From positions 14,818,445 through 14,882,444 of the forward strand of contig NC_087079.1 in assembly GCF_026151205.1 (NCBI RefSeq): DNA of 64,000 nucleotides, read 5' to 3'. A program made the translations under genes and the position numbers. Under the pieces are notes generated by a model, which saw nothing but the letters and a program-made list of their open reading frames with translations, was not told the origin of the DNA and did no database searches. Shown here piece after piece: positions 18,920 to 62,277 of the stretch (position 1 is its first letter; each line of letters opens with the position of its first letter). This stretch comes from Bolinopsis microptera. Its lineage: Eukaryota; Ctenophora; Tentaculata; Lobata; Bolinopsidae.

Positions 18920-18968
18920 ATGTTAAATCTCTTTCTCACGCTTGTGCTTGTTGTCGCAACGAACGCAG
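18920..18968 (+). CDS. Candidate signal-peptide exon of the adhesion GPCR
   Basis: An ATG at 18920 encodes MLNLFLTLVLVVATNA, a good signal peptide, ending at a GTAAAG donor (18969). It leaves one base of a codon, but the next confident exon (19602) needs two. Either a small exon lies between them, or the true first exon is elsewhere. Position and hydrophobicity make it attractive; the phase clash lowers confidence. Confidence 0.4.
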
Positions 18969-21900
18969 GTAAAGTTCCTTATTGTAGAAATCACTCAATT
19001 GACTAAGTTTCAACTTTATTGATCTATCATCACAATTATTAAAGTTATTTATTTATTTTATAACATGGTATCCAGCTTGTCTTGAGGTAAAGTTTTACAA
19101 CTCAAGTAATTTCGGTCAACAAATCTTCAGTTAAATTATACAAAATATCAGCATACTAAATTAGTTTCCGTTTTACAAAGTCGTGTACACTGTACAGGTC
19201 GGTTCGTGTCAAATTTCTGATTGCTTTTTATCATACTCAGTTTGAAAAAAAAAACCCATCATTATCCTTAGTGAAATCTGGTCAGAATATTTGAGAGATT
19301 TGATCGAATATTCCGTTAGCCAAATCTTGGATTTGGATGGTTTCCTAGGTCACACATCCCCAATTGCATTGCTTGTTTTTATAGAAATGCAAATATTCAA
19401 TTACTTCAGACTGCACGAATTGCTTACATAATTACTTTATCATGGAAGTGTGGTAGGTTTGATATCACTCCTGGATTACTGACCGATCATCTGACCTAAA
19501 AGTGATGAACTCTAAAACGATCGTCTAGCATGCAGCAAACAGTCTAATTATACAAATATCATCTGTAAGTCTGTGCACTACTCCCCTCACCTCTCCTCAA
19601 GTCTAACCGTGAAAATCTGTTCTGTAACTCTAAAATTAAACCCAGAAAATCTTTCAGTCAAGTTTCACGAAGAGATAAAATACGAACTGAACCCCAAGAG
19701 ATTTCCATGTTCGGACGAAAAGACCGTCACCTCGCTCACAAACAGGTTAGCAACCTTGAACACGACATGCTGTGTTATATTAATATTATGAATGAGCATT
19801 GTGTGGAGCTCCATAATAATTAACACACAATTTGCACTCAAATTCCATACATAACCTTAAAATTTAGTCATCAAAAATTCATTATTGCCTGAATATCTCT
19901 AGTAGATGATAAATTGATTCCCATAGCACAGCAAGTCACCAATATCTATAAAAATATCTAAGTTAAGTAAATAATACTTGATCTTAATACAATCAATGTA
20001 TGTACAATAATGTACATATTTGAATATATCGATAAATAAGTATTGTAATTTAATAATATCTGTGTAATTGTGAATACTAAATCCTGACAACATGACAAGT
20101 TACACAGGTAAAAACTCCAGGAATGCAATAAAGTTCATCACTCAAAGCTTAACTGTCACCAAATGAGTCAATTAGGGGAGACTACTATAATTGTTATTGT
20201 GTGAAACAAATAACACTGCATTACTGCATAGTATTGGTTAGGAGGCACACTCAGATTGGCTTGTTGTGACGAAGTTCAATTTCTTCCGAAACAGAATGGT
20301 GCGGTAGTTATATTTACGTAAGTTTGATGGGAGGTAACAATTTGAGGAATTTTTGTTAGGTATGCTGAGAATTTGAGATTTTGATATAGGAAGCATTCCA
20401 AGTTTGCTACAGCACACGTGGGGCAACTAACATGGTAGCAAATTCTCGTCTTTTCCTTTTAACTTATATCAGCAAAACAATTAACTCGTACGACAGCTCC
20501 ATTATTATTATGCTTTGTATAAATATGTTAGATATTAAGTATCATTATTAAGGCACGACAATTAACGCCTACCTGATGTGTCACATCTAATACCTTATTA
20601 TTGTGCAAAACAATTTTCATTATTCGAGAAAAAGGAAAAAACTTTTGAAAATTTAACATTAGCCCTTAAAAAGGATCGCGCTGCTTTCAGTTTTTTAGCC
20701 CCAATCACAGTTTAACCCATATCACAGCTACAAGCTTCCACTTTTAGCCCCTATATCACGGCAGTGTGAGACCTAACATGTTGCGTCTCTTACAGCGTCC
20801 CCTATAGCGTCTCTTACAGCGTCCGCTATAGCGTCCCCTATAGCGTCTTTTACAGCGTCCCCTATAGCGTCCCCTATAGCGTCCCCTATAGCGTCCTCTT
20901 GCTCTGAGTTTTGAGTTCTGACCATTTTTATGTTTCAGTCTGCTAGACGTACCTGAAAAGCTGATCTGTGTGAGGGAAGAGAAATGCCGAGTAAACTTCC
21001 ATCTACCACCCTGCATGATCAGAAAACGAAGAATTGACTCTGAAGATCTCAAACTCAATGTCACCATTGATAAACTGGATAGATATGATAACTTTGACAT
21101 CGTACGTGCTTTGAATAATTCTTTAACTCAACATAATTCTTTAACTCGACATAATTTACCTATTTTATTGTCAGATCTCAAGAAATAAATAAATGCACAT
21201 ATTTGCCATCAACGCCCATCCACAATTAAATCATCTAACACCACATAACACCAATTATCCTCAGAAATTTTCTCGAGAAGAGCTGAAGAGCGCCGTTACT
21301 GACGTTCTCTCTCCGTATCTTGTCAAGGATAACCCCTGCGGCTCAGGCAGAGTACTACTGGGAAGCGTTTGCCGTGAGTTTTATAATGAATCATAGTTAT
21401 TCTGTGTTTTTAAATTCCCATGCTTTGGTGAGTTAGAACGAGAATTTTCCCTAAAAATGTGTCGAAACCCTAAAAAATGTGTCAAGTATGTGCCTGTCCG
21501 ACGAGTAGTCTATTTGGGAGTGCAGATATGCCAGGGCCCGAGTTAATTCACCGGACCCATCTTTAACGAAGTGCTAAGAAGTCAACTGATTAAAAATTAA
21601 GGATTCAGAAAAAGAATCCGCAAATTTGCGTCCAGATCAATAGCCTTACTGTTAATGTCAATAATATTTTAGCACATATTTAGTTCTATCAAATGTTGCC
21701 AATCACATTTCAGTGGCACTAAGCAAAATGTGACATCTGGAATGTCATTTTGGCCAATATTTCGCAGGAAAAAAACACGTTCTCTGTAGTAATTTATAAC
21801 ACTTTTAAGTTTGTGGTTGAGATAACTGAATACATAATTTATTGTAAATTTGTATTTCAGTATTATGTAATGGGATGGAAGTACAGGTGTAGCCATTCCA

Positions 21901-24900
21901 CACCCTAGCTCCATAATATTAATATGAAGGACTTGTTTTAATTCTAAATTTAAACCTCAAATAAATCTTATATTCCTTACGATTTTAAACTTTTTTAAAT
22001 TATCGGTCAAATCTTGTATCTTCGATCCTAACCACCAACTTCTAATTTATGGAAAAGTCAGGCAAGAAAAGAAGCCACATTTCGGGTCACAACGGTGTTA
22101 CAATTTTAGGATAAATCAATCCATACATCGGGAAACACTTTTAGACTTTTAGTTAAAAGTAAAATAACAGTTTTATCTCTGGAATGAAACTTAATATAAA
22201 TGTTTTCATCAGACAGAAGTATTCGCAACAAATACTCATGTAAATCATAAACCTACTGTGTATTTATATTATACTAGAAAGCCCGTGGTAACAGGGACGA
22301 AGCTAGTAGTATTCTTTCAAAAAATATCCATCCCAACCGAACATACAGCCGATTTAAATATAATACACTTTAAACACAACGTTATTACCACAAAACCGAT
22401 CAAAATGACGTTAAAAAATCATTGCACGTGCATATTGTGTGCATTAAAACACCGTTGCTATGGAACGTTTTGGTTGTTACCTAAATTCCTATTTCTCATC
22501 TGATTTTCACGTGGGCGGTCGTACATACATACAACAAAAATAATTCTTTGAATTATAAGTAAGATTCAGTAATGGAACATCAGTTAAGGAATGGATATCA
22601 AATATTTATGTTACAGTAACTTAAGGGTGTAACAAGCTGTCATGTTCCGCCAGAAGAATGTCAAATTTCCCACTTTTGTGGATTCAACTTCCTGCCAAAT
22701 TTGATGTTTTTAAAGATATACCAAACAGTAAACTACCCCGTTATGTTACCAACAACCCCCTATATTTCAGGAATGTGTCTACCTGGAACGTACACCACTC
22801 AGTGGAACACGTGTGATGCCTGCCCAGTGGGTACCTACTCGGACTCTACTGGAGTAAAGGAGTGTTCGCCCTGTCCGGAGCACCAGACGACCCATACCAC
22901 TGGAGCTACAGGAATGGAACAGTGCCAAGGTAGGATTATACACTAATCAGATAGATTCCGCAATACCTGATAGAGGCTCACTGTACGGCAGATCATCTAA
23001 TGACCATTACTATTCGAGTATAATAGCCTAATGGGAATTCTTCTATACAATCGATTATAACCGGTATCAAGTGTGAGTCTCCGATTTAACCAGGCTCATA
23101 ATCTAGAAATGCATCGTTCTAAAGTTGATTTAGCGGTGTTAAATGTAGATCCAAGCCCATATCCAAAAAATTTTTAATTTCCTACATTCTCAATTTTTTC
23201 GTTTTCTGTGGCCCGCTCGCTTCGCTCGCATAAAATTTTACTTTTTTAGGGCCCGGAATGCTTTTTAATAGATAATCCTAGGTTACTTTTGGGGGCGAAG
23301 CCCCCGAAAATTTTGGAAATTTAAACTAGATTTGGCCTCCTGGAACGAATCTGACAATGGAGAACGATTTTAGCATACTTTTTTTTGATTTCAATTTTTA
23401 TTGGGATAAATTGTCTGGATTCTAGAATCCCTAAACACTTGGCTTAACTAAAGCACGAAATAGGAGACAGCATGAAGTATCAAGAGTTTATAATTTTGGC
23501 AAAAATGTTTTCTCATCTACTACCATCACTTTCTGCTTTCAAGCTATAAACTAATACAGGGTTAAGGGAATTTGGAGAAGGAAGCAAGTATGAGACCAAA
23601 TATTCAAGAAACAAGGAATTTAAATTTTCCAAAAATATAATAATGACTACCTTAATTCCCAAAAATTTGGGCGACAAAAAATTTGAGCGGGCCTCTCGCC
23701 CAAATTTTTTGCAGACCAAATTAATTGCATAAATCTTTTCCGTCTGCTAAATTTTTTGCTAACCAAACTTTTGGCATTTGGCCTGTGGCCCTGAAATCTA
23801 TAGAAAGATGGCTTTTTCTTCGTATCCAAGTGAAATAATATTTGAAATTTTAGTTTTCCAATCTGTCATTCATGGCTTGACCAAGTAAAAAGGCTTATAT
23901 TTTAAATGAATAGAAATAACTGGAATAGCTAACAGCTACTAATAAAACAAATGGATAGAGGTACGGATAGCTAGAGATTTAAACAAGATCTGCAAATGGA
24001 TAATCATCCACCGTAAAGTCTGATCTACAAGCATCAGTTATACCCGACTTCTCAAAGCCTTTTCCTTATGTCATCTGGCCTCCCTTTTAAATATACAAAA
24101 AGTTCGTTGATCCAACGAGCGTGTATTTCACGGATCACTGTCAAGCGGGTATCAATTTAACAATTTATCATCACTGTATTTTTTTAGTAGTTACTGGGCA
24201 GATCGTAAATTTCACAATGTGAAACAACTCAGACTACCACCTAAATGCTTAAAATTGAAAGCAAAATGACTGGAATAATAAGGAATAATAATGAACTAAG
24301 GCAAATATCTAACTGAAATTTTAGTGGAAAATCGTTCATTTTTCGAAGAATTTGTGCCCAAATTTTCGGTCGCCCAAATGAGTTCAAATTTTCTGCCCAA
24401 ATTTTTCGGGCTCAAATAAATTGTGCTCAATATAATGGCACACAAATTTTTGGGAACTAAGGTATTAGTATTTACTATTTAAATAAGATAGGAAACGCAA
24501 CAAAGAATGCTTATGCATTATGCATGTTTAGACGTATTACATCAACTCATAATACTATATAATGTTCTTTGAACTCCTGACATAAAGTTATTACAATTGC
24601 ATTGATGACCGTTCACAACATTACATGATTGATAATGCTATTATCAAAACTGGAATGGTAGTCTATATTGGGATTTGCAGAAGTTTTCTATAGCCGCCCC
24701 CATCCCCCCATGGGTGGTTTTTAGAAAAGAGTGCCCCTGACTGAGGACATTTAAATAACGGTCCAGCAACTTTTAGTCTGCTCTTTCACTTAAATTCCTA
24801 CTGAAATATTATCGAAAATTCTCAGAGTTGGCTCTCGAATTTCCTACTTTTTGTCAAAAATTTCCTACATTCTTAGAATGCGAGAATGCGGGTTTTTGGA

Positions 24901-27900
24901 TATGGGGATCCAAGGGTGTCCACAACGATGACTTACACCAAATTGAGCCCAAAGATGCTTATCTTATAATGTTTATGCAGTCATGTTCAGCTCTAGAGTT
25001 TGTAATGTGGTATTGATTGACACTGCAGTCTGCATGCAGGCACTGAAAATATGTCAATCTAATTGATAGAGGAAGTTGTAGCTGAGCTCTAATAAAAAAT
25101 ATATCAAGTTGGAAATTACTTACTACATTTACTACTTTTACTACTTTTATTATTAGACAACATTTCGTGAGATTCCTACCTTGTTTATCAGCTATTTTTG
25201 ACGTAGGTAAGCTATCAAATGTCTCCTCTAGTCTATGGAAGGACTGAGAGAAACCCCTTCATAAATTGTCACGTTGAGGAGTATTTAGGAACAATTTGAC
25301 TCTAGTCTATGGAGGGACTGCAAGGAAAACTCCTAGATGAATTGTCACGTTGAGGAGTATTTAGGAACAATTTAAATGTAAAACCTTTGAGGAATCAATT
25401 GCCTTAAGTTCAGCTATAAAAACCCAGATTACCTCTTAGCTTAGAACCCAAGAGTAGCACTTGCGGAATCCAGTTCCCTGATGCATTTCCTTCCTGGAGT
25501 TACTGGTACGTGAGGTGCTGTAGGGAGCATTGTAACTCAGTAGGGGGGGTTTCCAACATTCCGTGAACGAGTTTGCTCATTAATTTACTGAATTGAACTG
25601 TCCTGTTAACTTGTTATTAAATGATAAATGAGGTCCGTTGACAACAATGCATCATCACCGTTTACACCTTGAAGCTTACGAACACTTATTACTTATAGGA
25701 GTGACATTGCTCTCTAAATTAAATGCGAATCGCAAAGGCAGTCCGCTGATTTTTTTAAGCAACAAATCGGCTCCACGATTGACGTCTTGTTAAACAAGGC
25801 ATAACATTTAGGATTCTTTGACATGATAATTGAATCAAGAATTAGCCACAGAATGTTGTGCTATAATCTTGACCACATACCCGGAAAATCAATTTCCTGG
25901 AGCGGATCACAGTAGACCTGTGATTATAATAGACCGCTCAGGTCTGTCGGCGTAGGAACAGTGCCGAAATTAGAGGAGATGATATGTAAGGAATCAGATG
26001 TAATTGTAACTGCAGCTTACAGTTCCGGGATAAAACAAGCGTTGCCACTGATCCTCGTGCCAGTTTACGCAAAAATTCGAAAAAAGTACGGAATTAGTAC
26101 TCGAACTGGCTTCGTAAGATTAATTTTTCCTTGTGATCACTGAGATCACTACCAGTACTACTACTAGGGTCCTCACTTCAGGGCTTTAGATCCGAGACAA
26201 TATATTGCTCTCCTCTGATATGGACCATTCTCACTAATCAGCAGTAAAGTGTCGGTATTCCGAGCAGAATTACAGCATGCTTGCATTCCTGGATTCCAAG
26301 CAGTGAGAATTTGTTGTACGAGGTTGATATCAAGATTCTTAACATAACAAATACTTCCATTCCTCAGAAAAGTGCTGGGTTGATAAGAAGATATCCTCAA
26401 GACACAACCTAATGTTCCCGTCACCAAACGTGGTAGTTTCTGGAGCCATCGTCACGCTACATTGTGGTAGGCATTGGGCCTTCGACCACAGCGGGACCGT
26501 TACCAAAACAGTAAGTCTTACAGGGACTGTTACTAAAACACCCTAAAACAGTAAGTTTAACACAATCTTTGAGTATGGAATTCAAAAAGTATATCGCCCG
26601 AACTTGCAAATATATCATTCTGATATCCTTTGCCTTGGCTATTCAAACAACATTTTACCACAACTACAAACACAACCTCTCCCAGGCTAAATGTGGGGAG
26701 CCCCTCCCAACGTGCAGTGTCCGGTCCTGCCCGGACCCCTGTACAGCTGGTTACCTCTGCAACTCCTGTCAGTGTGTGGATATCAACGCTAGGTGCGATG
26801 GGGTGGAACATTGTGCTGACAACAGCGATGAAGCGGCCTGCCCTGCTCAAGGTTATTCTCTACCTTATCAGTGATAAGAAGTCATTAACATTAAGTGATA
26901 AGTTATTGTTTTATGTTAATGACTTCTTTCAATTATCTGGAAAACTCACAATTGGCTAAATTAAGTTCACGTAAATGCACATATCAGTATGAAGAAACAA
27001 CTCCTTGAGACTGATAGTTAGCACGAACCTTTGAAGTAAATCTGACTATTTTATCTATTTTTTATTAAAATATGTTATTTTACTTCCTAAATTGTTTACA
27101 AACTAAGATAGGCCAACTCTCCCCTCAGTGGATGCGCCCAGCTCTCTTCAGCTGTCCCGTGACGGTCTCACGTACGTTTCTGTCCCTCGCACGTGGTCCA
27201 GAACATCAGATATTGCTGTTTGTTTGTGGGCCCGACTGAAACTCTCCTCTTCCTTCTCCTCACTCGTCAGCTTCGAGCTAGCTGAATCTCACTCTCTTTG
27301 GATTCAACTCACCAGGTGAGATTTATTTTCAATTTCATTTTAAATAAAAGGCCAACAACGAGGTAAAGTTGATACCTCAGTTGGTTTTTTTATTTATTGT
27401 TTATTTATGTATTTGTTTTTATCCCGATCTACGCGATCTATCTTTATCCCGATCTACGCGTTGTTGGTTACTTCGTTCTAGCCAAGAGATACTAGAGTGT
27501 AAAGTGGTTGAATTTGATCTTGTTGGAATTCTTTCTTTAAATTTTATTAATTGTCTATTGAAGGAACATTGAAACAACAGAATACAGATTAAATCTAAAG
27601 AAATATTTAAGAACAGCTGTAGATCGCACTTTAAGAATGGGTTTTTTGTGGAAACCCATTTTAAACGTCCTCAAATTATCATTATAGAAGTGTCGACTCG
27701 TTGACAGTACCAAAAAACATTAAAAATTTTACACGGAAAACATTTCGCTCAGCTCAGAAAAGATAAAATCAATAAACTTCGAATAACATTTTCCAAAGTT
27801 ATAGCTGTTTCATAGCTTTATATTCAGCAATATTAATACCTCTTATTTAATTCGCCAATTTGACTTAATTGTTCAGTTTAACTTCTGGAATAGCTTTTCG

Positions 27901-51900: not shown

Positions 51901-54900
51901 TAAGAAAACTTTCCGGTAGATTTTCAGAATGCTTGAACAATTATCTAAGATGAAAATTTCCTCAGATGTTGAAAAAAATTACTTTTAAATAGTGTTAAAT
52001 CAATTTTAGAAGTTATTACTTTGTCGAAAATCAAGTTTTAAAAACGGTTAACTTGATGACGTCATCAAGGGGTGTTTATGACGTCAAATAATTTTTTTTA
52101 TACAATGTAAACTAAAGTGTAAACAATTATTTTAAAGACCTGTGGTCGGAGATGGCTGTATCTTTTATACTTTTGAATCTATGGACACCTAAATTTAGGA
52201 TACAATTGACTATATTTGACTGTCAAAGCGTCTATCCCTGAATATGTATCACGATAATCTGTCGTAAAACAGGGGTTCTAGAAAACCCACTTCCCGATGC
52301 TCCTGAAGCCTGAAACCTTTTTTGCAGTCGATTTGGTCAACGTCTAGACGCTCTGAAAAATTTCAGATCTCTAACTCAATTTTAATATGGTTTTTAAGGC
52401 ACCTGAATATGGCGATGTTGGGTTTTTTACCGAATTTCGTATAAGATAACAGTGCTGGCGAGTATTTTATGCAAATTTCTTAAAAATCTCAACATAACTA
52501 TTTTTTATTCCTGTCATCTTTGACATCAAATTAGAATGTTTTGAACTAAAAATAAATCTGCTGAACGACTTCTTAATGCCTGAAAAACTCCTGCCGGAGG
52601 CGGCGGCCTTCGGCCGCCGCCTCCGGCCGGAGTGCACGCTTCGCGTGCACGAAAGAAGCTTGTAACGTGTACCAAAGGGGGTATAATTATAGTAAAGGGG
52701 GTATAATAATAAATGGGTACATAGTATACCCACAATAAATGCAACGGTCGTGCTTGCCAGCACTGTGATTTGTATATAGGGTTATTATTATATTATGTGT
52801 ATATTGTTTTCATAGTAGTAAATAAATTATTTTCAACTATTATTGATTGAGTCGCTTTTTTGATTAATGAAATCCAATCTCAGATCTGACGGACGGTATC
52901 TGGCACACAGTGTGTTTCAGGTACTCAGATGAGGAGGGACAACTAACCATCTTCATAGACGAAAAAGACTGGTCAATTAAGCGAACAATCGACCCTGGTT
53001 CGTGAATATTTATTACGCTTTATTCACAATTGTTGCTTGCTCAGCTATTTTTCCTTACAGATACATAAGAAAAACAAAACATGAAAATATTCTCCTCGCT
53101 TATTATTCGCTGTAATATGTTTATGATTATAATGTATAATGGACAATTAATTTAATCTGTAATGTATTACAGCTGGGATAGGAAGTTATGGTAGTATGAT
53201 TCTTGGAGCGGAGCAAGATTTCCAGGAGAAATCAACTCTCAGAAAGTTGGACAAGTTCCAATATTTCGAGGGAAGTATTTCCAACTTCAATATGTGGCAG
53301 GTAAATGCCCCTTTATTGGAATTTGTATCGATAATATAGCTATAATAATAGGATCGGGTACTTGTACTGTAGAAAGATAACACGTGGGATTTAAAGTTTA
53401 ATCATTGATGGTTCATATTTTATTGAAGCTACAAAATACCTAAATATAGAAAAAGTTAAATTACTCTAAACATTTATAAATATCTCTGAATATCTCTAAA
53501 TATCTCTAAATATCTCTAAATATCCCTGGATATCTCTAAATATCCCTATATATCTCTAAATATCTCTAAATATCCCTGGATATTTCTAAATATCCCTATA
53601 TATCTCTAAATATCTCTAAACATTTATAAATATCTCTAAATATCTCTAAATATCTCTAAATATCTCTAAATATCTCTGAATAGTGTCAGTAAATATCTCT
53701 GAATATCTCATCTTTCAGGCGTTGCTTTCAAAAGAAGAGATGCAGTATCTGTCAGGTACCAGTGCTATCTGCAAAACCAAGCTAACAAAGGACGAGAGGA
53801 TAGTGTTACGCTGGGGTGATGTACTGAACTTTGGGAGTAAGACTGTTGAGCTGGGATCTATGAGTGATAACGAGATGTGCCGTAAGTAGGAGGGATCTTT
53901 AAAGATCTCTAAATATCTCTAACTTTAGATTTGTTTGGGGAGGCGAATCATACACAGTTTAGTGTAATTTATCTAAATAACTTTAAATATGTGTCGTAAG
54001 TTAAGATATTAAAACTTTAAATATCTCTAAATAACTTTAAATATGTGTCGTAAGTAGGAGGGTCTCTAAATAACTCTTGATAACTCTAAATATCTCTAAA
54101 TATGTGTCGTAAGCACTAAGAGAAGGGCTGCTGTAGATTGCTTGGTTGACAATATAGCTCCACAGTCCACATGGTGGTGGAAATGTATACTAAAGTACTA
54201 ATTTGGCAACTAACATTTTCGGCAACTAACGTTTTTGAGATTGTAACTCAAACTTACAAACCACGACAAACCATAACAGGGGTATCTTTCGTAGGATCAT
54301 TTGGTGTAGACGAACAGCTAAAACTAGAGATCAACGGAAAACCTGTAGTTTACGAGGACTCTGTTTTCAAGCTTTGTGATAGGTCAGAATGTGAAGCAGT
54401 GGATCTAAAGCTGAAGACATCCGGTACTAGGACTTTTGTTGGGGGCAACATGACTGTGGTTCTTAGCTCTGATGAAAGTAAGCCTTGAGTTTATATTAAT
54501 TGTTGTTTCACTTATCCGTTTATAAACAAAGTAAGTGAGTATAGGTCCTTTTATTTAGAAATTTAATTTTTGGCGAATTCAAGTGAAAACGGAATGTCTA
54601 TACTCTCTCCAACTCTATATTTTAGATAATAATAGGATTTTTCCAGGTTCAGGTATGAACTGTGACAAGAGCAGCTGTACTCTCTCCTCCTCAACCCTCA
54701 CTCCATTCCTCATACAATCCGAGTCCAAACGACCCGGTGAGACACTAGAACCCAGCGACCAGTTCTACTTCACGGATACCACCGGTCTAGTCTTGCGGTG
54801 CACCACAGAGAAATGTTTCCTGGCAGAGGATGAGCCGGGGACTAGTAACCTGTTCTCTACCGTTATTGAGAGGAGGGGTTGGGATGATTGGGAGGAGGCG

Positions 54901-57900
54901 GAGGAGTGCAAGGGAACCTGCGGTGACAGCTACCATATCTTCACCAGGTAATATTTCCTTATCCGCTGCTTCTGTCTGTGTTAATTTCTATTATATCGTC
55001 TGGAAGCATTGGTTGTGATAAGTAAATCTAGACTATTATCTGGTAAGTTACAATCTCTAATCTCCATATATCCATCTAGGAAGTGTCTCGCTCCTTCGCA
55101 CCTGTCTGAAACTCTGAAGTCGCTTTACTGTCCTGGAAGCCCGGAGAAAAGAGTCAACTGCCAGCTAGACACTTGTGAGAAAACAGGTATAAATCAGGCT
55201 CTTGATAACTTTAGATTAATACTAGAATTGTATCTCTTCTTACGTAGTGGTGGTAAAAGAAGTAATTGACAATGATCCTTACCACACCCCTCTCAGAGAA
55301 GTGCGGTCCTGGGGTGAGGGACACCAAGTTCAGAGGGGTGTTCAAATGGGGACAAACATACCGGGTAAACTACACCGTGGACATTCTCTGTCCTGCAGGC
55401 AACTATAATCAGCGGGAGTAAGTTTTTTGTATTATATTATGCTGATTATTCTCCAATTATCATCTCATTATTTGCTAAGTATTTTAACTTTACCAGGTCT
55501 TGTCTTTCTGCTAGACCGTTATCAGTGTATTAAGATAGTCGTATTCTGCAGAGAGTAGTAATTGTGTGCTGTGTGAGCCTGTAATTATCAATATCATCAC
55601 AATATTTGCTTCATAAAATACATTTTTCCGTTATCGATATTCTATTCATTGAAGTCTAATAATGAAGATTGAAGACTGAAATGGTAACGTTCAGTGAGTA
55701 ATACTGATTGTGTGCTATACGCCTGCAATGTTCAGGTACCCGCTGGTGGTTAAGATGAAGTGCTCGAGGGAGGGATACTATGAGAGCGACTTTGTAACTA
55801 ACATTGAGAAATGTGCGTTCCTCAGCGAGAGTGCCCAGCTTCTTCACAGCCTACTATCGGTGTGTATGTGTTGCGTGTGCGTGTGCGTGTGCGTGTGCGT
55901 GTGCGTGTGCGTGTGCGTGTGTATGTGCGTGTGTATGTGTGTGTGCGTGTGTAACTGTAAGTGTGCATGCCCGTGAGGTGGTACGTCCGTACGTTTGAGT
56001 GAATTGATATGGAATTATGTGAGTAAGTCTGGTTTACCATAATATAATTTCACAATCTGTATGTTGAAAATTAAAAGTCGGCTGTGCTTCTTCCTGCAAG
56101 TCGCACGAGATACGAAGCTTTTTAACTAAAATCCAACAAACAAAGCTTTTATCATAATTTATCATTTTGTTAACATCGATCAAACATTGATGTAGTAAAG
56201 AAGCGAGCTAGGACGATATTTCCTGTTCGACACAAAATAATAAAACAGGTTACTGAATAAGGGAAAGAGATTTAAAATAGCCGTCACTAACCATATGTCA
56301 GTACAGACTGCATTACAGGGAGATGTAACGGCCGGTAACGTGTTACAAGTGACAACGGACATGAAGACCATTCTGGAACGAGCTGACGACGTCAGCGCTC
56401 TGCATCTCGAAATGATACGCAATCTTACAGGTTCTTAATCAATATTTTTCTCTGATTACAGTATGGAATTTGAAAGATTTTATTTCTATGATTTCAGCTT
56501 ATCGTTGAATGTTTCTAACATGTATTATCTGGATGCAAATCTTAACGGAATTTTAAAATTCCTATGGTGTTTCAGATCGAGCACTAGCTACTGGAAACGT
56601 GACCCTGGCAGTTCAAGACAACATCATAGACGCTGTGGAGACTATAGCATCTAAAGTGAAGGTTGACGAGTTGTGGATTGCTCAAACAAAGAATCAGATT
56701 GTCAGAAGGTACGGTTGTGTGTTCTTTATTTTCATTATTTTTGAATAATTGAAAGATGGAACAATTGAAAGGCAGGACCAACTGAATATCATTGTTCAAA
56801 ATGTTTAAAATCGTTTCATCTTGCCAAAAAGAGCTACCTTTGAACGTTATGTTTTATATTCTTCAGATACTGTGTAAGTTTGCCCTAAGTTTCTCTTACC
56901 AAAGCACTAATTTCAAACGCTCTCACTCTGTTTCCAGCATTTTGGAGATGATAGACAAGTCGGCGGACATGGTAGATCTGATGGGTAAACCCGGCTCCGC
57001 TACAATCCGAGAAAACATTGCCCTGTTTGTAGACAAAGTGGACCTGACAACGTCCCTGCTTGTGAACCTGAACATAGCGGACACTTCCAACCTCTACACT
57101 ACAGAGCTGGTCATGACAAACACTGAGAAGAAAGATATAGTAAGGAGGGGGTTTAGGAATTTTTTTAGGAATTTGTTTTGGTCGCTCGTTTGCGGTTTTT
57201 TGTAGGATATTTTATAACTTTCTGCTGTAGAGAAGGACATATTAAGGATTTAAGACTGTTATTATTAAAAGAATAACCAATTTGTCAATATAATTGTTGT
57301 GCCTGACAACCATTAACCCCACACATTAACCATATAGCTGCAGGAAACCACCGGTATAGGTATCTACATTCCCGCCTCTATCCGCTCCTCCGCTCAGCAG
57401 GAGATAGACAGGGTCTGGTTCTCCGTCTTCAAGACTGACCGGCTCTTCCTCAGTAATGTACGTGGTATTCTGTTTTATTCCTCAGTAATGTACGTGATAT
57501 TCTGTTTTGAAGTTCCGAAACTCATATGAATGATTGTTATTCAGAATTCGATTATGTTATTGTGGTGTTGCAGGTGTTCTGTTAGTATGTAGTTTTCTTC
57601 AGAACTTTTATAAAAGCTGAACATCCATGTATTAAGGAATAATTATTAATAATGTATATTTTAGGTCCAATCATACCAATTTTTGACCAAAAAGTAGACT
57701 AATAGAAGATTTTATTTCTCCAGGAAACTTCAGAGCCAGGAATGGTGCTGGCTTGTAACGAATCGTGCGAAGTTTCAGGAACTATTGTCGGTATTGGTAT
57801 CGGTAAGAACTACGGCAACATTACAAATCTCAAAGATGATGTCCGGATTCAGTTCTCGCCGCCCTCGGTAAATTTTTAAAACTCTATCAGGATGGTTCTG

Positions 57901-59451
57901 TGATTATCGTAGATGGGATTATTGTTTGTAAAAGGTGGGTTGATATATTTCTTATCATCCATCTGCTTGCAGTTATGAACTGAAACTCACGTAGTCTGAA
58001 CCATTACGGACTATATCTCCAATTGTACATTAATAATCGCACAATTTTCAGTCGCAGCGTTTTAACCCCACGGCGTCTTGTGTGTACTGGAACGTTTCTA
58101 CAAGCTGGTGGTCAAACAAAGGAGTGAAGACTAAGCTGGACTTGAAGAATAACAGGGTCACCTGTGAGGCAAACCACCTCACCAACTTCGCTGTTCTCAT
58201 GGTGGGTTACTGTGGGTTACTGTGGGTTACTACCATGGTTACTACCATGGTTACTAACATGGTTACTAAACTCTCATATAATTACTTCCTTCTACCACCA
58301 GCTCCACAGTCTCTTTAATTGGTTACAAAAACCAGATTACCAACTTTGGATTATCTCCTTAATATGATCCACCACTAACTCCTTAATATAATATCACATT
58401 AATAATCTCCTTAACAACCTCCCTAACTGCCCCTCAGAATAACTCCTTAATATAATATCTCATTAATAATCTCCTTAACAACCTCCCTAACTGCCCCTCA
58501 GAATAACTCCTTAATATAATATCTCATTAATAATCTCCTTAACACCCTCCCTAACTGCCCCTCAGAATAACTCCTTAATACAATATCTCATTAATAATCT
58601 CCTTAACAACCTCCCTAACTACCCCTCAGAATAACTCCTTAATATAATATCTCATTAATAATCTCCTTAACAACCTCCCTAACTGCCCCTCAGAATAACT
58701 CCTTAATATAATATCTCATTAATAATCTCCTTAATAACCTCCCTACCTGCCCCTCAGAATGTAGGTAACGTGGAGATAATAGGAGTGCACATAACAGCTC
58801 TACAGACCATTACCCTAGTGGGAGGTGTTGTCTCCATCGTCTGTCTCTTCCTTACTGTTGTCGGACTCGCCAAGTTCAAGTACCTTCAAACTTTTTTATA
58901 GTCTTTACCCCATTTATTTCATTAGAAACATTGCATTATATCAAGCGTAGAAACTAAATCTGATAATTACACTAAAATGTACCTACAAAAGGAAAAGTTG
59001 ACAAACCTGAATTTAACCTGAATGAAATTTACGAACTAAACCTGCGCAGGTCACTAAGGAAGACCCCAACAAACCAGATCCACATCTCCCTGAGTTTCAC
59101 TCTAATGATGGGACTAATCTTCCTCCTTGTGGGACTCGACAACTGGACTGAAAACGCGGTTTGTTAAAATTATGTAGTTCTATTCTGCGAAAAAATACCG
59201 ATATGATAATATATTGGTCTATAATCCGGATAATCTTTTGTACGTTCTCTCAGACAACTCAAAAACTTAATTTATCAATCCTCCACCCCTACAGGCAATC
59301 TGTACGATGTTTGCGGTTCTGATTCATTACTTCTACTTATCTGCCATATCGTGGATGATGGTAGAGGGTGTGAACCTCTACATTGCCTTCATCCAGGTCT
59401 TCACGGGGGGACAGACTCACTTCTACAAAAAGTGTGCCCTCTTCGCCTTCG
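18920..59451 (+). CDS. Giant multi-domain adhesion GPCR (about 35 exons, 3' end not found)
   Basis: I assembled the exons by splice site and phase: 19602-19745, 20939-21101, 21265-21373, 22771-22929, 26368-26510, 26686-26851, 27129-27315, 40086-40261, 40454-40575, 40778-40904, 41259-41396, 41555-41731, 42136-42222, 47249-47399, 48585-48666, 49209-49314, 49504-49635, 49751-49861, 52884-52997, 53173-53300, 53719-53881, 54166-54477, 54647-54947, 55080-55186, 55297-55417, 55736-55859, 56307-56430, 56576-56708, 56938-57139, 57344-57457, 57724-57867, 58052-58201, 58758-58879, 59050-59158 and 59295-59451. Every junction from 19745 on keeps phase. The product is a cell-surface receptor with a long adhesive ectodomain, GAIN/GPS autoproteolysis site and a family B2-type 7TM. 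Adhesion GPCRs are known to signal through a tethered agonist after the GPS. The ligand is unknown. TM4-TM7 are absent before 63.2 kb, and the signal-peptide exon is uncertain. Three antisense genes lie in its introns. Confidence 0.85.
19602..21373 (+). CDS. Adhesion GPCR: unassigned N-terminal region (three exons)
   Basis: Exons 19602-19745, 20939-21101 and 21265-21373 encode about 138 residues. They are polar with several cysteines (KICSVTLKLNP, RFPCSDEKTV, LICVREEKC, PPCMIRKRR, NPCGSGRVLLGSVC). The segment DNFDI|KFSREELKSAV crosses a phase-0 junction. I recognise no domain. A 12-bp minisatellite sits just upstream of the second of these exons. Confidence 0.65.
20782..20897. repeat. 12-bp tandem repeat AGCGTCCCCTAT just before an exon
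   Basis: About nine copies of AGCGTCCCCTAT or the variant AGCGTCTCTTAC lie in the intron, ending about 40 bases before the acceptor at 20938. The unit length is a multiple of three, which gives a spurious Arg/Gly/Tyr-rich ORF on the minus strand. Confidence 0.85.
22771..22929 (+). CDS. Adhesion GPCR: GCC2/GCC3 (ephrin-receptor-like) Cys-rich domain
   Basis: One exon encodes about 53 residues with the pattern CxPGTYTTQWNTCDACPVGT, YSDSTGVKECSPCPEHQTT and TGATGMEQC. This is the GCC2_GCC3 / ephrin-receptor-like EGF-type motif (C..G.Y...GA..C..CP..T). It is bounded by TTTCAG and GTAGGA, phase 1 at both ends, which is typical of shufflable modules. Confidence 0.85.
23641..24474. mobile_element. 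Inverted-repeat element, about 0.83 kb
   Basis: Ends of roughly 28 bp are imperfect inverse complements. The left end at 23641 reads CTACCTTAATTCCCAAAAAT and the right end inverted reads ATACCTTAGTTCCCAAAAAT. Internal segments near both ends are rich in GCCCAAATTTTTTG-type sequence. There is no transposase-like ORF, so this is a probable non-autonomous element. Confidence 0.5.
25229..25378. repeat. Two-copy direct repeat, about 75 bp
   Basis: Two adjacent copies share CTAGTCTATGGA and AATTGTCACGTTGAGGAGTA followed by TTTAGGAACAATTT. They differ at several positions and are intronic. Confidence 0.75.
26368..26510 (+). CDS. Adhesion GPCR: Sushi/CCP-like exon
   Basis: This exon is 143 bases, starting after TTCCTCAG and ending at a strong GTAAGT donor. 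The phase fits both neighbours exactly (1 in, 0 out), which is the main support. It encodes KCWVDKK, then SPNVVVSGAIVTLHCGRHW and FDHSGTVTKT, resembling the Sushi core (G..V..GA.VTY.C..G......S.T.TC). The fourth cysteine may come from the next exon (AKC). Divergent. Confidence 0.6.
26686..26851 (+). CDS. Adhesion GPCR: LDL-receptor class A repeat 1
   Basis: The exon encodes a cysteine-rich segment ending with the LDLa signature: CQCVDINARCDGVEHC followed by ADNSDEAAC, including the acidic D..SDE calcium-cage residues. The upstream half (CGEPLPTCSVRSCPDPC) has extra cysteines beyond a single LDLa, so it may include a linker or be shared with the Sushi-like exon. Acceptor CCCAG, donor GTTATT. 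Confidence 0.85.
27129..27315 (+). CDS. Adhesion GPCR: pentraxin/LamG-like domain 1, first exon
   Basis: About 62 residues matching the start of a pentraxin fold: SSLQLSRDGLTYVSVPRTW, then TSDIAVCLWARLKL and LVSFEL. In pentraxins this corresponds to (L.F....YV.V.....FT.C.W.R). The exon ends in a GTGAGA donor with two bases of a codon, completed 12.8 kb away at 40086. Confidence 0.85.
27878..28840 (-). CDS. Intronless divergent class A-like 7TM receptor
   Basis: A 320-residue single-exon ORF with seven hydrophobic segments, probably an orphan G-protein-coupled receptor of the plasma membrane. TM1 carries IGDSIVL in place of the usual GN..V. TM2 has IAVSDLISC (the conserved L..D context). The TM3 end reads TSKLLMLKYP, so the DRY arginine is not in its usual context. 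TM6 has ISVTPISS (CWLP weakened to SVTP) and TM7 has NIYVYY instead of NPxxY. No extracellular TM3 cysteine is apparent. A basic C-tail (RRPPLRHH) follows. The length is typical for the family, and the start ATG at 28840 precedes a short Ser/Thr-rich N-terminus. It lies antisense in an intron of the adhesion GPCR. Ligand unknown. Confidence 0.85.
   Translation of the reverse strand: MPSITTSDVPRTTSYLVSFMTEDVKIRYLLVAYFLFVLISSLIGDSIVLAASLQPNGIRLNKFIVTIMQHIAVSDLISCFSFVLPNAASLIANRWVLEDPLMDIQRYVDEVIFGANTILIALLSTSKLLMLKYPAHIPRWTIKSAHITCALIWLFANISPATFRILVMTVGYEVIMQGTLWPVNYLAYFLNGITLFLPVIIMIITTSLILCYLGKARRVAQRSGGRTRLRGVATVVITAIIYVISVTPISSISLYLYIDKTADLSLLWGFATPFTALNIMSNIYVYYLTIPSLREFIRVKILRRPPLRHHSLVSKSYSRS
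31787..32483. mobile_element. Inverted-repeat element rich in TTCGAC motifs
   Basis: Left sequence from 31787 (CTCAACTGATATACGTACTC, then AGTTCGACACGCACTCTAGT) is an imperfect inverse complement of the right end near 32420-32483. Between and within the arms, TAGTTCGACACGTAC-type units recur in both orientations. About 0.7 kb, no ORF, probable non-autonomous element. Confidence 0.5.
32735..33050 (+). repeat. Interspersed repeat family, copy A
   Basis: This segment is homologous, with many substitutions, to the inverse complement of about 52370-52775. Shared blocks include GCTGGCAAGCA, TACCCCCTTTACT, CAGGCATTAAG, TTCTAATTC/TTGATGT, AGATGACAGGAA and CGCCATATTCAGGTGCCTTA. This copy lacks the GC-rich hairpins of copy B. 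Confidence 0.75.
34714..34819. repeat. 23-bp tandem repeat, about 4.6 copies
   Basis: The unit TGCAAAGTGATTTATCAGAT plus ATG repeats head to tail with near-identity. It is intronic and non-coding. Confidence 0.9.
36181..39551 (-). CDS. Ionotropic glutamate receptor subunit (three exons, with a frameshift)
   Basis: Exons on the minus strand: 39551-38692, 38533-37302 and 36969-36181. The start may be the downstream ATG at 39383 (MLRQSLLMLAMQAVSMFHG, signal-peptide-like). Exon 1 is the amino-terminal (PBP1/ANF) domain. Exon 2 holds the rest of it, lobe S1 and M1. S1 includes NAARSQVIDFSSPF, whose arginine aligns with the glutamate-carboxylate-binding arginine. Exon 3 holds pore loop M2 (FVLQGTDKLP), M3 (SMYTANLTAHLT, the SYTANLAAF gate), S2 with IDESSVLEF (its Glu aligns with the ligand-binding acidic residue) and M4 (LSGLFLMLGVGIM). 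Two S2 cysteines (DDCNK, SFCKD) match the conserved disulphide. Oddity: an extra base in the CCC run at 36749-36751 (GGG on the coding strand) breaks the frame inside S2. It is either a sequence error or a real lesion. Confidence 0.9.
37271..37320 (-). repeat. 25-bp tandem duplication carrying a second splice donor
   Basis: Two 25-bp copies (37271-37295 and 37296-37320, one mismatch) span the exon 2 donor of the glutamate receptor. The upstream donor (after 37302) gives the correct protein. The duplicate donor, 25 bases further on, would shift frame and reach a stop within nine codons. A poly-C tract (about 37248-37269) follows in the intron. Confidence 0.8.
40086..40904 (+). CDS. Adhesion GPCR: pentraxin domain 1, remaining three exons
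   Basis: Exons 40086-40261, 40454-40575 and 40778-40904 continue the domain opened at 27129. Visible pentraxin features are DRKWFSMCLSVDREFLDLYL then DG, GDMVIGG, GLIKDLSVWNKPLSPEQ, and GCLIPQPDDIIVAWS, matching the W..C......YLDG, LGG, I..LNVW...L and G..W elements. The calcium-site acidic residues are only partly evident, so metal binding is not assured. Confidence 0.88.
41259..41396 (+). CDS. Adhesion GPCR: LDL-receptor class A repeat 2
   Basis: One phase 1-1 exon encodes a textbook LDLa: SCPPDMWECGSGDCIPLIER, then CDRIPDNCLDGSDETGC. All six cysteines and the D...C.DGSDE calcium-binding acidic cluster are present. Confidence 0.95.
41555..42222 (+). CDS. Adhesion GPCR: C-type-lectin-like domain 1 (two exons)
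   Basis: Exons 41555-41731 and 42136-42222 encode about 88 residues with C-type lectin features: SDLAEEACLKLGGSLALLST, then AWSSSPNG and ESSARAVLCQR. The first helix cysteine and LGG.LA pattern are clear, as is the terminal LCQ. The domain is short, and the EPN/QPD and WND carbohydrate motifs are not seen, so sugar binding is doubtful. Confidence 0.78.
42328..42427. repeat. 19-bp tandem repeat, about five copies
   Basis: The unit TAATTACTAATTAGATTAT repeats with almost no change. It contains TAAT-core homeodomain-type motifs, which may simply reflect AT richness. Confidence 0.9.
42725..45606 (-). CDS. 275-residue protein with two filamin-repeat-like segments (seven exons)
   Basis: Minus-strand exons, all phase-compatible: 45606-45562 (MAKLVYIGFPSPLTK), 45393-45211, 45039-44936, 44730-44638, 43787-43691, 43165-42998 and 42862-42725 (TAG). 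No signal peptide, so probably cytoplasmic. Residues about 16-76 (ASCISLDTNEE...GICQDISVIPEKKGKYKIEL) and the C-terminus (ACTGPDGSSVPTN, CTIVDDDTINLGFSPS, GNGTYSLNLLIADKVFPGCP) both resemble the second half of a filamin/ABP280 Ig-like repeat (GP...V.C.V.D....V.F.P...G.Y.L.......PG.P). The middle has two related exon motifs (ALNIPGLDVKPNDDGSMSF and ADIPGMNVVKNEDGTVMF) and a Thr-rich linker (SETTTTNKEE, RTTRTTTTI). The family call is tentative. The gene sits antisense within an adhesion-GPCR intron. Confidence 0.7.
43800..44543. repeat. Duplicated minisatellite block: (TGGTCACATGAC)n twice
   Basis: Two macro-copies (43800-44147, 348 bp; 44148-44543, 396 bp) share identical flanks and contain 12-bp arrays of about 20 and 24 units. 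The 48-bp length difference is exactly four units. Each array has a single variant unit (ACATTAC). Every unit carries CACATG and GTCAC. As 12 is a multiple of three with no stop, long spurious ORFs appear on both strands. It lies in an intron of the antisense gene. Confidence 0.95.
47249..49314 (+). CDS. Adhesion GPCR: C-type-lectin-like domain 2 (three exons)
   Basis: Exons 47249-47399, 48585-48666 and 49209-49314 encode about 113 residues: YRYFDTPATYDEAHDTCTGI, DGEMATITT, AAWVGGGKKAGYLTWDNGD and ETLPFVCMVET. This is the canonical lectin fold order (Y....A...C...G..LA.I, WIG......W.DG, ..FVC). No EPN/QPD calcium-sugar motif is visible, so it is probably a protein-binding CTLD. Tandem ACACGAATAT repeats (about 48935-49150) and TTATCTTTACT repeats (about 48665-48780) occupy the intron between the last two exons. 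Confidence 0.88.
48935..49150. repeat. ACACGAATAT-type tandem repeat
   Basis: Alternating CGAATATACA and CGAATATGTAAAATATA units lie in tandem for about 215 bp within an intron. They produce a Tyr/Ile-rich spurious ORF on the minus strand. Confidence 0.85.
49504..53881 (+). CDS. Adhesion GPCR: pentraxin domain 2 (five exons)
   Basis: Exons 49504-49635, 49751-49861, 52884-52997, 53173-53300 and 53719-53881 form a complete pentraxin: SMEFGNTGEP, TCASFKSAKANGTIISYATD, DNEMLVMV, LTDGIWHTVCFRYSDEEGQL, GSMILGAEQDF, YFEGSISNFNMWQALLSKEE and IVLRWGDVL. The HxC, LGxEQD and F.G.IS.FNMW signatures are much closer to classical pentraxins than in domain 1, and the EQD motif is the pentraxin calcium-site segment. 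The 3-kb intron after the second exon (49862-52883) has been invaded by repeats. Confidence 0.92.
50216..50428. repeat. 106-bp tandem duplication
   Basis: Two units (50216-50321 and 50322-50427) starting ATTCATTCACGGCTTACAAT differ at essentially one base (GTAAAAATT versus GTACAAATT), which indicates recent duplication or homogenisation. Confidence 0.95.
50599..51040 (-). pseudogene. Non-LTR retrotransposon ORF2 C-terminal fragment
   Basis: An open frame of about 147 codons reads ILLYNCNSWAAPLASLNELD, then IAHRKHLRRILNIRWPTGV, RWRMLGHILRGQEDSPAY and GRRGRPCLNLLDVIRKDL. This pattern (LLY....W, H.K.LRRIL.I.W, R.R.LGH.LR, G.R.RGRP) is typical of the region downstream of the reverse transcriptase in LINE-type polyproteins. 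The polymerase core is absent, so it is a truncated relic on the strand opposite the host gene. Confidence 0.75.
52370..52775 (-). repeat. Interspersed repeat family, copy B, with GC-rich hairpins
   Basis: Inverse-complement homologue of 32735-33050. It differs by an inserted GC-rich block (about 52591-52651) made of two perfect hairpins, a 16-bp stem at 52593-52627 and an 8-bp stem at 52632-52650, each closing as C-TTCG-G. The copy sits in the intron inside pentraxin domain 2, on the opposite strand. Confidence 0.75.
53461..54115. repeat. AAATATCTCT tandem arrays flanking one exon
   Basis: A 10-bp unit (TCTCTAAATA, variants TCCCTGGATA and TCCCTATATA) fills 53461-53711 up to the acceptor of exon 53719-53881. 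A more degraded version continues at about 53893-54115 after its donor, including two copies of ATGTGTCGTAAG that mimic the exon's own end and donor (ATGTGCCGTAAG). Confidence 0.85.
54166..54947 (+). CDS. Adhesion GPCR: unassigned region leading into TSP1
   Basis: Exons 54166-54477 and 54647-54947. The first encodes a beta-rich stretch (TITGVSFVGSFGVDEQLKLE, KLCDRSECEAVDLKLKTSG). The second encodes MNCDKSSCTLSSST, DQFYFTDTTGLVLRCTTEKC and the start of the TSP1-like domain. I do not recognise the first 140 residues. The acceptor at 54165 is the least certain in this part. Confidence 0.65.
54870..55186 (+). CDS. Adhesion GPCR: thrombospondin type 1-like domain
   Basis: Across the junction 54947/55080 the protein reads GWDDWEEAEECKGTCGDSYH, IFTRKCLAPS and YCPGSPEKRVNCQLDTC. 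This matches the TSP1 plan (W..W..C...CG......R.C.......C.G......C....C) with the first tryptophans and six cysteines. TSP1 modules commonly precede HRM and GAIN in adhesion GPCRs such as the BAI group, so the position is sensible. Confidence 0.75.
55297..55859 (+). CDS. Adhesion GPCR: hormone-receptor-like (HRM) domain
   Basis: Exons 55297-55417 and 55736-55859 encode CGPGVRDTKFRGVFKWGQTY, VDILCPAGNYN, VVKMKCSREGYYESDFVTNI and EKC. This follows the HRM pattern (C....G...W..T......CP.G......R.C...G.W......C). The second exon ends at a GTGTGT donor that runs straight into a GTGTGC microsatellite (55862-55965). Confidence 0.7.
55862..55965. repeat. (GTGTGC)n microsatellite abutting a splice donor
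   Basis: About 100 bp of GTGTGC/GTGTAT repeats begin two bases after the exon ending at 55859. The donor itself (GTGTGTATG) is part of the GT-rich array, so exact donor choice cannot be fixed by eye. The phase of the next exon supports 55859. Confidence 0.85.
56307..57867 (+). CDS. Adhesion GPCR: GAIN domain (five exons)
   Basis: Exons 56307-56430, 56576-56708, 56938-57139, 57344-57457 and 57724-57867. They encode an alpha-helical subdomain A (VLQVTTDMKTILERADDVS, NIIDAVETIASKV, ILEMIDKSADMVDLM) followed by the beta-rich subdomain B (TTGIGIYIPASI, DRVWFSVFKTDRLF, SGTIVGIGIG, VRIQFSPPS). This is the order expected for the GPCR-autoproteolysis-inducing fold next to a GPS. The acceptor at 57344 could instead be 57338, which adds Leu-Gln without changing frame. 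Confidence 0.85.
58052..58201 (+). CDS. Adhesion GPCR: GPS autoproteolysis exon
   Basis: One phase 0-0 exon encodes SCVYWNVSTSWWSNKG and then RVTCEANHLTNFAVLM. HL|T is the canonical self-cleavage triplet, with the scissile bond between 58180 and 58181; TNFAVLM is the tethered-agonist start. Typical GPS motifs have four cysteines. Here the second (WWSNKGV instead of ..GC) and the fourth (CEANH instead of C.CNH) are missing, so only the first and third remain. Confidence 0.95.
58202..58757 (+). repeat. Intron built of two minisatellites, including the splice acceptor
   Basis: The 5' part (58202-58266) is tandem GTTACT(GTGG) and GTTACTACCATG units starting at the donor itself. The 3' part is a 64-bp repeat whose end, CTGCCCCTCAG|AATAA, is nearly identical to the true acceptor context CTGCCCCTCAG|AATGT. 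Acceptor-like AGs fall at 58437, 58501, 58565, 58629 and 58693; the one at 58757 is real. Reading on from a decoy in phase 0 meets TAA, after five codons in most units. Confidence 0.92.
58758..59451 (+). CDS. Adhesion GPCR: transmembrane helices 1-3
   Basis: Exons 58758-58879 (TM1: ALQTITLVGGVVSIVCLFLT), 59050-59158 (TM2: QIHISLSFTLMMGLIFLLVG) and 59295-59451 (TM3: HYFYLSAISWMMVEGVNLYI). The N-Q-I-H-I-S-L and W-M-x-V-E-G-x-x-L-Y signatures are diagnostic of the secretin/adhesion class. The last exon ends at GTTAGT, leaving one base of a codon, so more exons must follow for a functional receptor. Confidence 0.93.
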
Positions 59452-60530
59452 GTTAGTAAAACGTTTAAAATAAACATTTTTCCGAGATGCTTTTTATTTA
59501 TAATAAAACTGGAGAGTTCGAAACTTTTATAGCTGAATATTTTATGCCTAATGGCTATCGCAGCTGTTTTTATTCCAAGTAGCTGTGTAATTTCCTAGTT
59601 CTTATATGTTTTTACTTTTTAGGTCCTTTTCCAGTTTCTGTATCCCATTATATATCACGTAATTAGCGGTATAGGTTTAGTTATTTTTTAAATATACCTG
59701 TCCCCAATCTCGTATTGGAAAATGATCCAACTAAATTCTGAGTATAAATACGGGTGATACCTGCAAGGGTATTTATTATCATATGGCTGTTTTTAGGTCC
59801 TTTTCCAGTTTTCAGAAGTTGATAAAAGTTTTCTGATTATTAAATAAGTTGCCAGGGGTACAGCTATAACTCTATATAACTATAAGTATTAAATATAAGT
59901 TGCTGCCCACGCAGCGAACACGGGCGAGTTAAGTTATAATTAAAAAGCTATAATTATCTTTTTATGCTTAAATGGTGCATCTTAACACGAGGGAACTCTA
60001 ACTTTTTGTTTAATCCTTAGTCTAAATAAATAAATAGTTTAATAAATAAAATTGTCTGCTGTGACATTAACTATAGCAGCTGCGATGCGGATAGATTTTA
60101 TAATTTTCATATTTTCATGTCTTTAACGATGCGCTATGGTTATACTTATAAATATACAGGGTGGCCCAAAAGTAACTACCCACACGCAACCCTTTAATAA
60201 CAGCTGAAGACGATTTACACAAGTATTTTGAAAGCTCCTGCTAATAAAATCTCTCGTATCACTTATATGTTTTAAATATCCCCTTCCAGCTTTAATAACT
60301 CACTTAATTCGTCTCCGAATTGCACAAAAATTTCAGAGATTATAAATATGGGTCAACTTAGATTTCCTGAAAGTTTCGTAAGCCTGAAGCCCCGCCAAAT
60401 TACAGTGGGCCGTGGGCGTGGCGTGACACTCCCTCTTTTTCACTATTGTCTTCATAAAATGAGAACGCTTTAAGCTAGGAACTCAAAATTTGTTGCACAC
60501 ATTTGTACATATTAGAGAACCTTACTTAGG

Positions 60531-60997
60531 GAGCGTTCACATATGACGTCAGCAGCCGAGGGGGGAGAAATGCTGACGGTTGCTGACTGGGGGGGGGGGG
60601 TCTGAGCCTTGCTGACTGGGGGGGGGGGGGGTCTGAGCCTTGCTGACGTCAGCAAAAAAAACGTTAATTTTGTTGGCAAAAAGTTGTTGCTTCAAATCAA
60701 TTTTATTAACAATATAACTTCGCCAACTTCGCATTTGGTAGTAGTACTTGAACTGAACTCTGTTGAACAACTGTTTAAATCAGTCACACATTAATTTTCC
60801 CTACCTCCACCCCTTCCCCCCGTCAGCATTTCTATACCCCCTTATACTTATAGCTGGCTGGCAGGATCCTGATTGTATTAAGAAGGCAAAGGGAGGGGGG
60901 TCTGGCAAATTCTGACAGTTGCTGACAGGGGTGAGCTGGAGGGGGGGGGGGGGGGGGTAATTGGCCAAAATCTTGCTGACGTCATATGTGAACGCTC
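60531..60997. mobile_element. MITE with 24-bp perfect terminal inverted repeats
   Basis: Termini 60531-60554 and 60974-60997 are exact inverse complements, starting GAGCGTTCACATATGACGTC and each containing TGACGTCA. The interior has TGCTGACGG/TGCTGACTG segments alternating with G homopolymers (about 60591, 60620, 60942). No ORF of interest and no convincing target duplication, so it is non-autonomous. Confidence 0.82.
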
Positions 60998-61020
60998 ACT
61001 GTTTTCACTCTATTAATTGG

Positions 61021-62136: not shown

Positions 62137-62277
62137 AACAGTTTTCAGATAATTATATGCCATAAGACTATAATAGTATGGCTAATTACTGCTCGTACGC
62201 AAACACGGTGCAGTTAAGTTAATTATTTCCGATGCATAATTATCTTTTTATGCTAATATTTTGTTGACATAAATAGT

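Follow-up and report, generated by a model that had tools for sequence, protein, structure and literature searches.

The question raised by this locus is whether one gene can join pentraxin, C-type lectin, LDLa and GCC2/GCC3 modules to a seven-transmembrane receptor, or whether neighbouring genes on one strand only appear to do so. The window, which is the whole stretch of 64,000 nucleotides that was analysed, lies on contig C8 of the 264.7 Mb genome of the ctenophore Bolinopsis microptera. The sequence-only reading had proposed a phase-consistent chain of exons at 18920-59451, with modules in the order GCC2/GCC3, sushi-like, LDLa, pentraxin 1, LDLa, two CTLDs, pentraxin 2, a module of no known family, TSP1-like, HRM-like, GAIN, GPS and 7TM. 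The chain and its module order were borne out by a splice-aware model and by a phase test. The 7TM region was only partly in the place proposed for it, since TM1-TM3 are coded there but TM4-TM7 at 64644-65474, beyond the window.

The splice-aware model predicts a protein of 2251 aa from 47 plus-strand exons (18920-68812) that read in a single frame up to a terminal stop, and an AATAAA lies at 69001, downstream of the stop at 68812. The window contains 36 of the 47 exons; the donor at 59451 follows TM3, and the exons coding TM4-TM7 and the tail lie past the window end. An automatic gene-finder model, which had doubtful small exons inside the big introns, was replaced by hand-resolved exons. Splice score, phase and domain content were used to fix 46 exons at first, and the junction 55859/56307, which superseded an early donor at 55812 and acceptor at 56302, was settled later together with the terminal exon, giving 47. 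The terminal exon is the top-scoring option of those compared and is less certain than the others. The Pfam tests of the joined protein and of single pieces, the alignment to human receptors and the GAIN-7TM matches to paralogues used the earlier 55812/56302 junction.

When the splice sites flanking peptide cores were picked purely on score, phase agreed at 22 of 24 adjacent junctions, the figure for non-adjacent ordered pairs being 249 of 732 (34%), and this test is not fully blind because the core limits were slightly trimmed and the core frames were taken from the model after it existed. A more favourable test, with windows set at the model's own boundaries, gave agreement at 42 of 45. Of 46 exons, 40 gave their top codon score in the frame used by the model when stops were ignored, and 44 did so when stops were penalised. 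In addition, modules that are split by introns rejoin in the model, namely pentraxin 1, pentraxin 2 (five exons), the TSP1-like and HRM-like modules and 7TM (seven exons). Pentraxin 1 is interrupted by the largest intron (12,770 bp, 27316-40085), and its Laminin_G_3 match (profile positions 5-149 of 151, protein 311-458) extends over three exons and needs 27315 to be joined to 40086, a phase 2 junction with a strong donor (7.9). Because the junction phases agree and pentraxin 1 spans the largest intron, a single, large, predicted adhesion GPCR gene is the likely explanation. Scanned against Rfam at gathering thresholds, the window had no match.

All modules of the predicted receptor are on the plus strand. 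The putative exon 1 (18920-18968) codes a Met and a hydrophobic, signal-peptide-like leader and ends in phase 1. It is followed by an N-terminal region without a known domain (exons 19646-19745, 20939-21101 and 21265-21373), which is phase-consistent and is the lowest-confidence part of the model; the codon score of these four exons (18920-21373) is about background and that of exon 1 does not exceed it. The GCC2/GCC3 exon (22771-22929, phase 1-1) is matched by Ephrin_rec_like at 4.6e-9 in the joined protein, where Ldl_recept_a (1.2e-8) matches two stretches, LDLa 1 (26686-26851, 1.6e-5 when tested alone) and LDLa 2 (41259-41396), which carries a DGSDE motif and is the best stretch (520-556). 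Two stretches each were also matched by Pentaxin PF00354 (9.4e-21, best at 792-939) and Laminin_G_3 (4.2e-13). They are pentraxin 1 (exons 27129-27315, 40086-40261, 40454-40575 and 40739-40904), which when tested alone matched Laminin_G_3 at 1.4e-7 and not PF00354, and pentraxin 2 (exons 49504-49635, 49751-49861, 52884-52997, 53173-53300 and 53719-53881), to which the best Pentaxin score belongs. Lectin_C (9.2e-7) was found in CTLD2 only (exons 47249-47399, 48585-48666 and 49209-49314), and among PDB chains the CTLD1-CTLD2 piece matched echicetin at 0.00064, likewise over CTLD2 only, while no solved relative of pentraxin 1 was found.

The remaining modules fared differently. Single-piece tests of ten pieces gave no Pfam match for the N-terminal region, for CTLD1 (exons 41555-41731 and 42136-42222, recognised by pattern) or for the module at 54280. 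The sushi-like exon (26368-26510, the module running on into the beginning of the following exon) had no Pfam Sushi match and one spurious match only; its four-cysteine pattern and spacing remain. The module of no known family and the start of the TSP1-like module are coded by exons 54280-54477 and 54653-54947, the 5' edge of which is uncertain, the frame being open to 54150. The remainder of the TSP1-like module (55080-55186) follows, and TSP1_spondin reached 0.08 and 13.7 bits, under its cut-off of 41. The HRM-like module (exons 55297-55417 and 55736-55859, with an alternative donor at 55812) scored 0.0086 and 16.9 bits with the donor at 55859, under the cut-off of 26.2; it scored 0.13 with the donor at 55812 and 0.0044 with a piece carrying one extra cysteine. 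Given these Pfam results, the predictions for seven modules (GCC2/GCC3, two LDLa, two pentraxin/LamG, CTLD2 and GPS) and for 7TM are firm, and sushi, CTLD1, TSP1 and HRM are weaker readings of cysteine pattern and position. Hence the module list first proposed was supported by Pfam on the joined exons for all of the former, but not for sushi, CTLD1 and the 54280 module, which had no match, nor for TSP1 and HRM, which stayed below cut-off.

What type of receptor is it? The GAIN region and GPS are coded by six exons (56307-58201), TM1-TM3 by exons 58758-58879, 59050-59158 and 59295-59451, and, after an intron of 5192 bp (59452-64643, of which the window holds 59452-64000), TM4 by 64644-64722, TM5 by 64871-64988, TM6 by 65121-65279 and TM7 by 65404-65474, followed by a C-terminal tail of 435 aa. 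With the exons past the window included, the 7tm_2 match is complete (1e-35, positions 3-250 of 250), and GPS is matched at 1.1e-10 in the joined protein and at 3.3e-11 in the piece alone. There is no Pfam GAIN match, and the stretch before GPS aligns with the GAIN region of ADGRL3. Among human receptors the GAIN-GPS-7TM part matched ADGRL3 (8.6e-49), ADGRD1 (1.1e-40) and ADGRG6 (1.2e-39), and the L3, L2 and D1 chains that lack the large ectodomain reach similar scores (133.1, 130.3 and 129.1 bits, respectively). Other loci of the same genome match the GAIN-7TM part at about 25-48% identity, with one 22-residue stretch at 73%. The GPS exon ends in NHLTNFAVLM, that is, HL/T and a hydrophobic segment after it, which we take to be the cleavage site and the tethered agonist, respectively. 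Two of the four cysteines of GPS are substituted (KGV and CEAN where ADGRL3 has QGC and CSCN), so the two GPS disulfides are not both kept; the lost cysteines are apparently partners in one disulfide. Retention of both disulfides was not treated as a strict criterion for membership, and the best call from 7tm_2, GPS after a GAIN-like region and HL/T with its putative tethered agonist is an adhesion GPCR (class B2). Because two cysteines are replaced, autoproteolysis is uncertain, and cleavage at GPS is no more than plausible.

As originally claimed, a single adhesion GPCR whose ectodomain is unusually rich is still the best reading, but a separate short receptor from about 54.18 kb is possible, if rather unlikely. 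There would then be two transcription units or isoforms, one for a secreted protein of pentraxin and lectin modules that terminates behind pentraxin 2 and the other for a short receptor with the 54280 module, TSP1-like, HRM-like, GAIN and 7TM, starting from an ATG at about 54171-54183, and the two may coexist with the long form through alternative promoters. Left unspliced at 53881, the frame runs into a stop at 53887, which is not telling because an unspliced phase-1 GTAAGTAG donor always does so. An ATTAAA lies at 54008, which would suit an end here, and there is no AATAAA within 53881-54700. A start in the open frame at 54150-54280 is suggested by MYTKVLIWQLTFSATN, which by eye weakly resembles a signal peptide, and by an in-frame ATG at 54183 before a short hydrophobic stretch, and the acceptor at 54280 has only a moderate score (2.5). 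However, the 53881 donor has the sequence GTAAGT and agrees in phase (phase 1) with the exon that follows, and the last exons of pentraxin 1 (CS) and pentraxin 2 (C) both end just past a cysteine at a phase-1 intron, as intraprotein modules should. The 53881-54280 junction is thus the weak link of the single-gene model, and the true acceptor may lie upstream of 54280 because the frame is open and, by eye, protein-like to about 54235.

A division further upstream, with 18920-27315 belonging to a different gene from 40086 onward, is very improbable. It would be in keeping with the two minus-strand genes that lie in between, but the Laminin_G_3 match requires the 27315-40086 join, and both the phase and the donor score of that junction fit.

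If the locus is a single receptor gene, the next question is what its ectodomain could recognise, a pattern- or glycan-sensing role having been suggested from its two pentraxins and two lectin domains. Pentraxin 2 matches neuronal pentraxin-2 (5.3e-10), ADGRG4 (5e-7) and C-reactive protein (1.7e-6). The residues D60, N61, E138, Q139, D140, E147 and Q150 of C-reactive protein are presumably its Ca2+ ligands, and in the alignment six of these seven are identical in pentraxin 2, with E147 replaced by D. Where C-reactive protein has F66, part of its phosphocholine pocket, pentraxin 2 has M, and therefore the ligand need not be phosphocholine. In pentraxin 1, which shares 19% identity with pentraxin 2 where the two align, the CRP-type Ca2+ ligands are not kept and the aligned positions differ. 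The motifs EPN, QPD and WND, looked for as signs of Ca2+-dependent sugar binding, are all absent from CTLD1 and CTLD2; CTLD2 has two cysteines, and the CTLD1 piece has three, including one that is part of the preceding LDLa. Hence the suggested role keeps the Ca2+ site of pentraxin 2 in its favour, but glycan sensing by the ectodomain is only partly supported because pentraxin 1 and both lectin domains are without canonical ligand residues. That the gene is a decayed receptor, either a pseudogene or a non-signalling decoy, is highly unlikely, since in spite of the lost GPS cysteines and the absence of canonical lectin residues and pentraxin 1 ligands, 7tm_2 is complete and the 47-exon model has no premature stop, whereas the other two frames of 46 exons hold 260 stops in total, although the absence of stops is weaker than it looks because the exons were chosen to be open.

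The preferred reading, a single adhesion GPCR, can be compared with known systems. ADGRL3, the best GAIN-GPS-7TM match, has NFAVLM after the cleavage site in common with the predicted protein, but two GPS cysteines are replaced here, and the rhamnose-binding lectin and olfactomedin domains given for ADGRL3 in the available part of a recent review are unmatched (PMC13197933). Four human adhesion GPCRs (ADGRD1, ADGRD2, ADGRG4 and ADGRG6) resemble the present one in having a pentraxin-like module (PMC10687090). According to the accessible text of that source, the ADGRG4 pentraxin is without a typical Ca2+ site, whereas pentraxin 2 here keeps it, and GCC2, LDLa and CTLD are not named there for the four (PMC10687090). 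The present protein also differs in having two pentraxin/LamG modules. Amphioxus adhesion GPCRs described in 2008 have Lectin C-type, LDLa, TNFR and CUB domains, and so are alike in their lectin, LDLa and TNFR modules; the available portion of that report describes neither the present module order nor a pair of pentraxins (PMC2246102). Pentraxin 2 resembles C-reactive protein and the neuronal pentraxins in sequence and in its Ca2+ residues and differs from them in being built into a receptor and in the replacement at CRP F66.

As far as the partly available literature examined goes, no adhesion GPCR was found to be reported with a sushi module or with one called GCC2/GCC3, the amphioxus TNFR being nearest to GCC2/GCC3, and the term 'C-type lectin' is absent from the available text of a 2026 review (PMC13197933) and of a holozoan GPCR survey (PMC12716839). 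None of the titles and abstracts among the matches listed has the present module combination, supplements and most subscription papers being outside the scope of this search. The claim of an undescribed receptor type therefore stands in part, in that no matching module order was found among the matches listed, but pentraxin, C-type lectin and LDLa modules had already been reported. Novelty would lie in the combination, because C-type lectin, LDLa, TNFR and pentraxin modules are already in known adhesion GPCRs, and the best call is an adhesion GPCR in which the combination of modules is new.

A pentraxin of the C-reactive protein type is normally a soluble humoral factor. We tentatively propose that the gene may encode a membrane-bound pattern recognition receptor, in which a CRP-type pentraxin would act through a GAIN tethered agonist on a G protein, within a locus that would be a nest of four receptor genes. 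In the mechanism that goes with the preferred single-gene reading, the ectodomain would keep a ligand or matrix component off the membrane, mainly through the CRP-type Ca2+ site of pentraxin 2, which would grip its ligand in a Ca2+-dependent manner, and the remaining modules would form a long spacer that contributes to reach and folding and makes additional contacts. A ligand bound under pull would shift or remove the 1538-residue N-terminal fragment at HL/T, and the exposed TNFAVLM could then act as a tethered agonist on the 7TM for signalling via G proteins, while the 435 aa tail may dock cytoplasmic partners. If both Ca2+-dependent binding by pentraxin 2 and activation by fragment release are true, a humoral-type recognition module would be linked directly to G proteins. 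Because the Ca2+ site of pentraxin 2 is intact and that of ADGRG4 is lost, the comparison bears on the original purpose of the pentraxins of adhesion GPCRs.

Quite apart from the host receptor, this locus is of interest for the receptor genes nested in it. The intron within pentraxin 1 contains two of them on the minus strand. One is a predicted class A GPCR of one ORF (27878-28852, 324 aa from stop to stop, PF00001 3.7e-12), and the other is an ionotropic glutamate receptor gene that extends over several ORFs and whose ends are not fixed (36184-39566; ANF_receptor 1e-20, Lig_chan-Glu_bd 7.8e-26, Lig_chan 5.3e-18). The TM3-TM4 intron holds an intronless plus-strand ORF of 346 aa (63303-64340, running past the window) which had no Pfam match of weight and one chance-level match among PDB chains (0.7). 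It is a family member because it has 32 matches in the genome including itself, the best other at 40% identity, and it is GPCR-like by eye from its hydrophobic pattern and an NPIVF near its end. Counting this ORF and the two minus-strand genes, the adhesion GPCR gene would host three other receptor-like genes; a literature search on nested genes found nothing.

Among 39 scored of 278 candidates elsewhere in the genome there was no close copy of the ectodomain, the matches being 37-38% identical over the GCC2-sushi region (contig C4) and 46-48% over LDLa. An adhesion GPCR of the same genome at C11:10522500-10529500 has, as judged by eye, several GCC2/GCC3-like repeats; a pentraxin about 20 kb from it made it look like a relative of the present gene, but that pentraxin is in a separate stop-ended ORF. 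With 150 of 159 candidates scored, the pentraxin profile has at least 144 matches genome-wide, and many of them lie in open frames 200-600 aa long, which is a large pentraxin repertoire. The STING and GFP families had no match in this genome, which says little since all 14 control genomes were blank as well; COX1 had none either, against 8 of the 14 controls with a match, but a nuclear assembly may be without the mitochondrion. TRPM loci are present, and the best identity to a fragment of the TRPM2-like chain 6co7 was 28%; if that chain is from Nematostella vectensis, the genome is probably that of another species. Several introns contain repeats. The CTLD1-CTLD2 intron has a 12 bp repeat, ATGACTGGTCAC, of 52.9 copies by the finder (43832-44466), long parts of which are open in two frames. 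The sequence around the GTAAGT donor that follows the last exon of pentraxin 2 occurs in copies at 53882, 53996 and 54050 (within 53882-54113), the latter two copies sitting in an intronic tandem array. Finally, a minisatellite at 58376-58760 consists of six copies of a 64 bp unit, each with a CCTCAG acceptor-like site, and the last CCTCAG is the acceptor of the TM1 exon.
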